A DNA stretch of 43,751 nt. Source: an uncultured Saprospiraceae bacterium (lineage in GTDB: Bacteria > Bacteroidota > Bacteroidia > Chitinophagales > Saprospiraceae). This document shows positions 3,981 to 5,363 of the stretch, one piece after another. The notes beneath the pieces are model-generated. The model was given only the letters and a program-made list of their open reading frames with translations. It made no database searches and was not told the origin of the DNA. A program made the position numbers and the translations under genes. Position 1 is the first letter of the stretch. Each line of letters begins with the position of its first letter. The stretch covers positions 1 through 43,751 of the forward strand of contig CAKZTD010000029.1 in the NCBI GenBank assembly GCA_937921595.1, written 5' to 3'.

Positions 3981-5156
3981 ATGACTTGGAAATACACCTT
4001 TCTTTTTACTTGCCTTTTTTTGATTGCCTGTCAAGCGGAATCCGAAGAAAAAACGGAAACTCCTGAAGTAGTTGAAACGGATACACCTATCGAACTTCCT
4101 GCACTTGAAGATGAATATGATTTAGCAGAACACAAATGGGGTTTTATTAATAAAGGAGGTCGTTTGGTGATCAAGCCTAAATATGATGATGCTAGAAATT
4201 ATTCAGAGGAAAAAGCAGTCGTTCGTGTCAAAGGTAAATGGGGAGTGATCAATCGAAATGGAGAATATATTTTACGGCCTACCTATAAGTCAATTTGGTC
4301 TTATAGAAATGGCTTGGCGAGAGTTCAAGGTTTTGATTACAAAATGGGATTCATTAATGAAACAGGAAAAGTTATGATTCCAATAAAATATTCCAGAATC
4401 GATGACTTTTCTGAAGGATTAGCTAAAGTAAAAACGGAAACCAACTTTGGGTACATTGATCAATCTGGAGATTTAGTGATCAAAGATGAGTTTCGAAAAG
4501 CATGGCGGTTCAAGGATGGCTTTGCTAGAATTATGAAATTCAAAAAATATGGAGTCATTGATAAAAAAGGGACGCTACTAATTCCTGCCGAATACGATAG
4601 AATTAGTGATATCTCTGAAGGTTTTTTCAAAGTCAAAAAAGATGGACAGTATGGATTTATCAATTCAAAAGGCAAGCTAATAATTCCTCCAAGTTTTAAA
4701 TCCGCAAAAGATTTTAAAAATGGTTATGCTCCTGTTTCCAAAGATGGAGAATGGGGACTTATTGATACTAAAGGAAATTTCATTATTGAACCTTCTTATG
4801 ATGATTTGGAATATGCTGGTGAAAAAATGTGGAAGGTTTTAAAGGACAAAAAATACGGTTGTATAGATATTAAAGAAGAAATTGTTATCCCAATCAAATA
4901 CGAGTTGCTCTATAATTTCGTTGATGGAATGTCTGCTTTTCAAAAGGATGAATTTTGGGGCTATATGAATGTTGAAGGCAAAGAAATAACTCCAGCTCAT
5001 TTTGGCTTGGCTTGGGATTATAAAGAAGGTTTAGCGAGAGTAGCTTTTAGAGAAGGGATTGGTTACATCAATAATAAAGCACAGGTGATGGTGGAACCGA
5101 AATATCGAGATGCTCGGGATTTTTCGGAAGGGATGGCTAGGGTGCAGATGTGGTAG
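3981..5156 (+). CDS. WG-repeat (KWG) lipoprotein
   Basis: A surface or periplasmic lipoprotein made almost entirely of WG beta-repeats. The signal peptide ends in a lipobox LIACQ, giving lipidated Cys near residue 17, followed by a Glu/Thr-rich linker to about residue 45. Ten repeats follow, each with a core such as KWGFINKGG, KYGVIDKKG or EWGLIDTKG and a strand like FSEGLAKV, spaced 35-37 residues. The last repeat stops at MARVQMW, without the next WG core, and the hairpin array begins one base after the stop codon. The true 3' end may therefore have been replaced. The role of WG repeats is unknown; binding or adhesion is usually presumed. Confidence 0.88.
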   Translation: MTWKYTFLFTCLFLIACQAESEEKTETPEVVETDTPIELPALEDEYDLAEHKWGFINKGGRLVIKPKYDDARNYSEEKAVVRVKGKWGVINRNGEYILRPTYKSIWSYRNGLARVQGFDYKMGFINETGKVMIPIKYSRIDDFSEGLAKVKTETNFGYIDQSGDLVIKDEFRKAWRFKDGFARIMKFKKYGVIDKKGTLLIPAEYDRISDISEGFFKVKKDGQYGFINSKGKLIIPPSFKSAKDFKNGYAPVSKDGEWGLIDTKGNFIIEPSYDDLEYAGEKMWKVLKDKKYGCIDIKEEIVIPIKYELLYNFVDGMSAFQKDEFWGYMNVEGKEITPAHFGLAWDYKEGLARVAFREGIGYINNKAQVMVEPKYRDARDFSEGMARVQMW

Positions 5157-5288
5157 TTCAAAATTGCTTCACAATTTTGAAGGGATAGTCCCGATTTAAA
5201 ATCGGAAAGGTATAGATCACCTTCAGTGATAGGGATAGATTTGAATTACTGCGCTCTCAAATAGGGATAGATTCCTTCGGAATAGTAG
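5157..5288. repeat. Array of five different hairpins joined by AGGGATAG linkers
   Basis: Directly after the lipoprotein stop codon come five unrelated hairpins: 5157-5181 (10-bp stem, loop CTTCA), 5189-5206 (TCC-bulge-GATTT stem), 5216-5230 (5-bp stem, loop CTTCA), 5239-5262 (6-bp stem, 12-base loop) and 5271-5283 (4-bp stem around CTTCG). They are separated by near-identical linkers AGGGATAG (5181-5188), AAGGTATAG (5207-5215), AGGGATAG (5231-5238) and AGGGATAG (5263-5270), with a truncated AGTAG at 5284-5288. The linkers are conserved and the stems differ, with a compensatory base on each side. I do not recognise a named element type. Confidence 0.8.
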
Positions 5289-5363
5289 CAAGAGAATTAG
5301 AATAAATATAGAATATAATACTGGTACCTAAATGGTGCATTTTTTAAAATAGAAAAATTAATA

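Follow-up and report, generated by a model that had tools for sequence, protein, structure and literature searches.

A probable REP-like family of hairpins in head-to-tail arrays behind stop codons in one Saprospiraceae genome

REP repeats have been described in detail for Proteobacteria, and the sequence of the stem is conserved within a REP family. According to passages of PMC3733652 (BMC Genomics 2013), GTAG REPs lie downstream of coding regions, often give the flanking ORF its TAG stop codon, and can be reiterated in tandem, head-tail dimers being allowed. The same passages assign GTAG repeats to Proteobacteria, Cyanobacteria, Chloroflexi and the PVC superphylum, and CGTC repeats to Bacteroidetes among others. 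REPs of E. coli located within 15 nt of stop codons were reported to stall ribosomes (excerpt of PMC12306157), and BIMEs alternate in orientation (excerpt of PMC2817692). Subclass 2.6 of TnpA-Y1 (RAYT group 5), found mostly in Bacteroidetes, has atypical hairpins alongside and copies of these elsewhere in the genome, and subclass 1.2 carries the motif YIKNQKEHH (both from passages of PMC6006769, BMC Genomics 2018).

Here we describe an array of hairpins joined by the linker AGGGATAG in the window, the whole stretch of 43,751 nucleotides that was analysed. Among the matches listed in the open-licence literature there was no prior description of this linker family. Our preferred reading, to which we give a probability of about 0.58, is a REP-like palindrome family that has multiplied in this one genome, forms head-to-tail arrays, was probably once mobile and is recognised by tag and shape.

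As shown in Table 1, the array begins one base after the stop codon of a WG lipoprotein gene, and the five palindromic pieces which an earlier note had described between the linkers all lie where it had placed them. Hairpin 3 shares its length class with the 78 genome-wide units of 15 nt discussed below, but its 5' linker is a variant. The 13-mer of hairpin 5, directly after AGGGATAG, was found five times with the window copy counted. When the hairpins were folded singly as RNA, the first three surpassed most shuffles and the last two were weak. Folded as a single RNA, the 132-nt segment was not unusually stable (z -1.44; 14/200 shuffles equalled or surpassed it), and at minimum energy it formed long-range pairing and not five separate hairpins.

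Table 1. Features of the hairpin array and its 3' flank in the window
Feature	Position	Strand	Remark
GTAG foot of hairpin 1	5153..5156	+	last base of WG gene and its TAG stop; from sequence
Hairpin 1, 10-bp stem, loop CTTCA	5157..5181	+	-7.2 kcal/mol; 0/200 shuffles as good
Linker AGGGATAG	5181..5188	+	base 5181 common to linker and hairpin 1
Hairpin 2 (TCCCGATTTAAAATCGGA)	5189..5206	+	folded as 5190-5206: -5.7 kcal/mol; 6/200 shuffles as good
Variant linker AAGGTATAG	5207..5215	+	from sequence
Hairpin 3 (ATCACCTTCAGTGAT), 15-nt class	5216..5230	+	folded as 5217-5231: -2.1 kcal/mol; 5/200 shuffles as good
Linker AGGGATAG	5231..5238	+	from sequence
Hairpin 4, six outer pairs, inner part poorly paired	5239..5262	+	folded as 5240-5263: -0.2 kcal/mol; 103/200 shuffles at least as good
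Linker AGGGATAG	5263..5270	+	from sequence
Hairpin 5 (ATTCCTTCGGAAT), 13-nt class, last unit	5271..5283	+	folded as 5272-5284: 26/200 shuffles as good
AGTAG, array end	5284..5288	+	from sequence
Terminator-like hairpin and T run, separate	5324..5346	+	consensus match only; 3' of array, 5' of next gene

The earlier note had taken the array to be something other than CRISPR, and we agree: instead of conserved repeats of 24-48 bp with regular non-repetitive spacers, there is a linker of 8 nt with inserts of 13-42 nt, mostly palindromic. Its suggestion of a structured RNA found no counterpart among known ones, with 0 matches to any Rfam family at the gathering score in the window and 19 further loci.

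The source genome of the window (G000) is a draft of 465 contigs and 8,038,241 bases. The pattern AGGGATAG-N(10-40)-AGGGATAG occurred at 65 places in it, against 2 for the backward control. AGGGATAG alone occurred 309 times, against 127 for the reversed word, a control which is inflated because that word also arises inside arrays. A stricter double-linker form was found in one of 396 genomes of the order, a set that took in three of the four congeners; this one was G000, with 45 places, and the controls gave 0. In a survey of 40 genomes (G000 and 39 relatives) none of the four congeners had the double-linker pattern, and in three more distant relatives it matched once each, at places where no hairpin pattern was visible by eye. 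Sixteen scattered matches in other genome contigs were set aside; none of the loci had more than three copies on one strand and each stood in a differently named record, for which reasons they were treated as chance. Two matches in viral contigs were one simple CTATCTATCC repeat and not arrays. Among the genomes searched the array family is confined to one species, the congeners searched being without it. The array is repeated within G000, and the search of related genomes proposed by the earlier note yielded no arrays bearing AGGGATAG in the relatives searched.

The array might be suspected of being a chance likeness or a local tandem repeat, because the linker is short and the background of lone AGGGATAG words is high (309 against 127). 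Three copies of AGGGATAG anywhere in the window were indeed only mildly unusual (4/100 shuffles). Three within 100 nt, however, occurred in 0/400 first-order Markov sequences of window composition, and 65 against 2 double-linker places, 45 strict places in a single genome and the covariation described below speak against chance as well. Copy number and covariation refute this explanation, to which we give virtually no weight. The window array is real, and it is a member of a multi-copy family and not a single copy.

The position of the arrays relative to genes was analysed in the window and in 40 stretches chosen because linkers had been placed there (together 430,575 of 8,038,241 bases), with ORFs of at least 90 aa called mechanically. 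Only one of 55 arrays lay inside an ORF. Forty-nine of 54 arrays had the same direction as the upstream ORF and 5/54 the opposite one; between tandem gene pairs 23 ran with the upstream ORF and 3 against it, and 24/54 lay between convergent ORFs. In these stretches, AGGGATAG words standing alone had no orientation bias (8 with the upstream ORF, 6 against it, 3 inside ORFs), as expected if many of them are chance. In the 49 co-oriented arrays the first linker lay a median of 23 nt from the stop codon, which is one hairpin; it was at most 30 nt away in 36/49 and at most 60 nt in 44/49. From array end to next ORF the median was 133 nt, and uniform placement in the gap was rejected (p 2e-11). Three of the 49 arrays had large stop distances (225, 936 and 2298 nt), in at least one case because the array is fused to the end of the ORF. 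The array of L147 at 7970 (+) joins an ORF end with no stop codon between, and the protein would extend some residues into the array; by eye this ORF resembles a TonB-dependent receptor.

The stop codons themselves were biased. Genes before arrays ended in TAG in 31/44 cases, against 72/271 of the others (p 4e-8; 315 of 333 ORFs counted, the others being left out because they lay close to the end of a stretch or had an isolated linker-like word). At stops without a linker known to the script, the base before TAG was G, giving GTAG, in 14/22 array genes against 14/72 control TAG genes (p 3e-4), two of the 22 (L147 and L154) ending inside a linker variant that the script did not recognise. In 9/49 arrays the gene takes its stop codon from the TAG of a linker or of a variant of it, and the proteins that stop there end in -KG, -EG, -EE or -KE. 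The arrays thus stand directly behind stop codons in gene direction, and the foot is often the stop codon. Hairpins were in excess in the 40 nt after stops not only in G000 (0.193 vs 0.106 shuffled) but also in G003 (0.194 vs 0.097) and G005 (0.111 vs 0.037), so G000 is not alone in having hairpins after stops. A frequent word after stops such as AGGGATA of G000 was found in none of the four congeners or G005, a weak comparison of 33 to 100 kb each.

The earlier note had also offered a composite terminator, and the location of the arrays behind genes, 24/54 of them between convergent ORFs, would suit an intrinsic one. A terminator-like GC hairpin with a T run was present inside 3/55 arrays only, against 8/55 in the 220 nt downstream (two of these 8 falling in a facing array), where shuffled downstream stretches gave 1/55. 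The last hairpin was followed by AGTN in 42/52 arrays, mostly not AGGGATAG, and AGTG, which accounts for 31/52, does not suit a terminator either. We regard this explanation as very unlikely. Consensus matching gave 2 terminator-like sites in the window stretch against 0.4 expected. Since one of them is downstream of the array and so few arrays hold one, the window array is likely transcribed as a 3' UTR.

Units in the sampled stretches fell mainly into length classes of 15, 18 and 19 nt. Inner units carry an ATAG foot within AGGGATAG, and GTAG stands only before first units. The 15-nt class comprised 78 units in the whole genome, 53 of them distinct. Its four inner pairs were standard in 91.0% of cells, against 63.2% with the 3' letters shuffled (0/500 as high); the two outer pairs, fixed by the search pattern, were excluded, and these shuffles take no account of relatedness. 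The stem covariation which the earlier note had wished to see examined is therefore present, pairing being kept despite changed stems. Cells changed on both sides numbered 75 against 24.3 shuffled (0/500), the covariation score was 0.831 against 0.282 (0/500), and sliding the partner lowered pairing to 14-51% (at most 50.9%). Two of the five measures were not above shuffles in this class: the number of pairs altered on both sides (4 vs 3.1; 138/500) and that of further pair types (10 vs 10.7; 443/500). Own arms scored higher than arms swapped between units in the 15-mers (0.889 vs 0.633; 45 distinct), 18-mers (0.887 vs 0.704; n=19) and 19-mers (0.846 vs 0.444; n=13).

Whole arrays gave a similar picture. 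Those of L116 and L136, at unrelated genes, agreed in 87% over 116 nt, with linkers and hairpin order kept and stems changed, and in related arrays such as L116 and L142 the stems differed, by eye, through paired changes. The paralogous arrays of G000, which stand at unrelated loci, thus bear out the earlier proposal of a recurring type of element in which linkers are kept and hairpins change while remaining self-complementary. The loop CTNCG was present in 65/133 odd-length units of a loose set (199 matches for the own tag against 32 to 128 for other tags); on the opposite strand it reads C-GNA-G. A C-GNA-G loop has special stability in DNA. What the stems keep is pairing and loop class, and not sequence.

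That both arms change together, and that neighbouring stems in the window array are unrelated to one another, would fit inverted repeats made during replication by template switching at nascent hairpins, the linker being a hotspot. Recurring hairpin classes and loops (CTNCG in 65/133), recurring hairpin orders at unrelated genes and phasing to stop codons are not expected from such a process, and we consider it improbable.

Units within an array are direct repeats, head to tail, and arrays face each other where two of them meet between genes. In the facing arrays at L123, L146, L155, L131 and L132 the last hairpins were often alike by eye (ATTGCC..GGCAAT). Facing arrays enclose a spacer of about 60-80 nt which by eye is partly alike between loci, e.g. 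GTGGCGCATTTG. Short tandem repeats of the GTGAGGA type were seen by eye behind some arrays (L142, L153, L139). No preference for either strand was found from mismatches or energies: A.C against G.T mismatches stood at 21 to 9 in the loose set but at 11 to 8 in the 15-mers, and RNA parameters favoured the coding strand (104 to 46, p 0.03) while DNA parameters favoured the other (57 to 40, p 0.08).

The same gene junctions were compared in relatives. The region between the WG gene and the M28 peptidase gene holds no array in G002, G003 or G004, and the contig of G001 ends 21 bases after the WG stop codon; the comparison suggested by the earlier note accordingly revealed no orthologous array in another species. 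The WG protein ends ARVQMW in G000, ARVQEW in G002 and ARVMSY in G001, and those of G003 and G004 end one residue later. That the last WG repeat is incomplete, as the earlier note had remarked, is not a sign of damage, as the WG proteins of G001 and G002 stop at the same point. The stop codon of the alanyl-tRNA synthetase (AlaRS) gene of G000 falls in a linker and the protein ends LLEG; it ends LLN in G002, one residue shorter, and MIAG in G004, at the same length. No linker stands behind AlaRS in G002 or G004, and in G001 and G003 this gene end lies outside the contigs found. The idea that the linker had added the last glycine was dropped, since G004 has no array and its protein nevertheless has a final G at equal length. 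The ends of both proteins in relatives indicate that the array abuts the old gene end there without truncating the protein. Junctions without an array thus exist, with intergenic flanks too diverged for exact insertion points.

A selected RNA element of the 3' UTR would account for part of these data: tandem hairpins at the stop codon would slow terminating ribosomes or block 3' exonucleases, and the linker would be a single-stranded protein site. The gene-wise orientation (49/54) and the phasing to the stop codon, the compensatory changes in stems, the near absence of T-run terminators (3/55 arrays) with the terminator-like site of the window lying behind the array, and the stalling reported for E. 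coli REPs at most 15 nt from stops (excerpt of PMC12306157) all point this way. Against it, the family is restricted to one species, with the WG-M28 junction empty in G002, G003 and G004 and the strict pattern in 0/395 other genomes of the order, and several hairpins are weak as RNA. CsrA binds hairpin arrays that bear GGA. A CsrA sponge (CsrB/RsmZ-like) was rejected, PF02599 being present in 0/5 genomes of the genus and in 3/14 of the control rings, and its lack in 5/5 of these genomes also weighs against a 3'-UTR element. We judge a selected RNA element rather unlikely as the primary explanation, though the strict phasing and orientation could equally reflect selection on an RNA role.

Two Y1 transposase genes were found in G000. 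The first, on contig C333 (L160; 6768-7010), has the motifs NHVH and YLHNNP and hairpin repeats on its flanks. The flanking repeat, GCAAGTT..AACTTGCATTATT, was found 8 times in G000 and in none of four congeners, and is a family other than that of AGGGATAG. This gene is near the motifs of subclass 2.6 and, like the genes in the passages of PMC6006769, is flanked by dispersed hairpins, and the host group fits if it is Bacteroidota; the flanking repeats are not those of the arrays. The second, on contig C131 (L157; 44660-45001), has GCCCTGAAGGGGC-like palindromes on both sides and carries YIKNQEDHH, which resembles the subclass 1.2 motif given there. In the 3342 and 3243 bases around the two genes of the draft genome there were 0 copies of AGGGATAG. 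In G001 a related Y1 gene (L159, contig C320) has CAAGTTTAAGCGAAGCGGTAACTTG-like repeats alongside, the motif occurring three times and in G001 only. Its flanking motif AAGCGNAGCG and some long hairpins of G000 have by eye a ten-base resemblance, and the full motif has 0 copies in G000.

Under the REP-like reading, the unit is a hairpin, in most cases 13-20 nt long, with a (G/A)TAG foot in front of it, and the order on the coding strand is TAG-hairpin-AGGGATAG-hairpin, head to tail. Pairing kept without sequence suggests that whatever recognises or preserves the units reads foot and shape. GTAG REPs and IS200/IS605 elements, the latter inserting 3' of a fixed tetranucleotide through a single-strand intermediate, suggest by analogy that copies probably arose from single-stranded DNA on which an HUH (Y1) transposase acted, in which case the arrays would be mobile; growth may have been head to tail because each AGGGATAG offers a new TAG foot to the next unit. 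In favour of this reading, the genome does possess a Y1 gene with hairpin repeats on its flanks. Speaking against it, no transposition was seen, neither Y1 gene is flanked by AGGGATAG, and the diverse stems, direct units and ATAG inner feet are unlike REPs. In a likely transcribed 3' UTR the arrays could slow ribosomes or protect mRNA ends, in line with what is reported for E. coli REPs near stops. More tentatively, and with well under an even chance in our estimate, the family may be a replicating DNA element known by a short tag and hairpin shape, which installs itself at stops, sometimes supplies the stop and grows head to tail. Recognition by shape would then let stems drift freely while their arms co-vary, and growth would be head to tail, every unit having a fresh tag at its end.

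The family bears on how REPs are recognised, why they sit at stops and how new families start. One species with diversified stems and kept pairing, beside congeners without the family, offers a natural experiment on shape-based recognition; the same contrast could tell whether hairpins at stop codons are parasites that the host tolerates or parts of the 3' UTR that serve it.

Compared with known systems, the arrays recall the double-hairpin elements of fungal mitochondria, which are mobile hairpin units, and differ from them in that those are organelle elements. The stems of G000 are far more diverse than those of REP families generally: no conserved stem was found, the 15-nt units being mostly distinct (53 of 78) with covarying stems. 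Nor was there the inverted pairing or alternating orientation of REPIN/BIME, the units being direct. The arrays are unlike the elements of E. coli, where BIMEs alternate in orientation (excerpt of PMC2817692) and REPs share sequence motifs, and like E. coli REP/BIME in that hairpins lie no more than about 15 nt from stop codons (excerpt of PMC12306157). As far as the passages of PMC3733652 go, the likeness to GTAG REPs is broad: short high-copy palindromes (65 places) with a TAG-ending foot, downstream of genes (49/54 co-oriented) and between tandem or convergent ORFs, the foot supplying TAG stops (9/49; TAG in 31/44 vs 72/271), clusters including tandem ones, and an uneven distribution among species. 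In copy number, place after stops, tag-given stop codon and GTAG foot the arrays behave as published there, and the earlier verdict that they are not REP does not stand in that form. They depart from GTAG REPs, again as those passages describe them, in very diverse stems, head-to-tail units and inner feet of ATAG within AGGGATAG; of the GT[AG]G foot, GTAG stands before the array in 14/22 TAG genes and ATAG at inner units, and neither Y1 gene of the draft genome is a cognate RAYT gene flanked by the repeat. Because the stems are not conserved, the units form no inverted pairs, no cognate transposase flanked by the repeat was found and the GTAG foot stands at first units only, the family is REP largely by behaviour and not by membership, hence REP-like. 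What stands out is an unusual freedom of the stems in a family frequent in one genome and otherwise largely explicable as REP-like.
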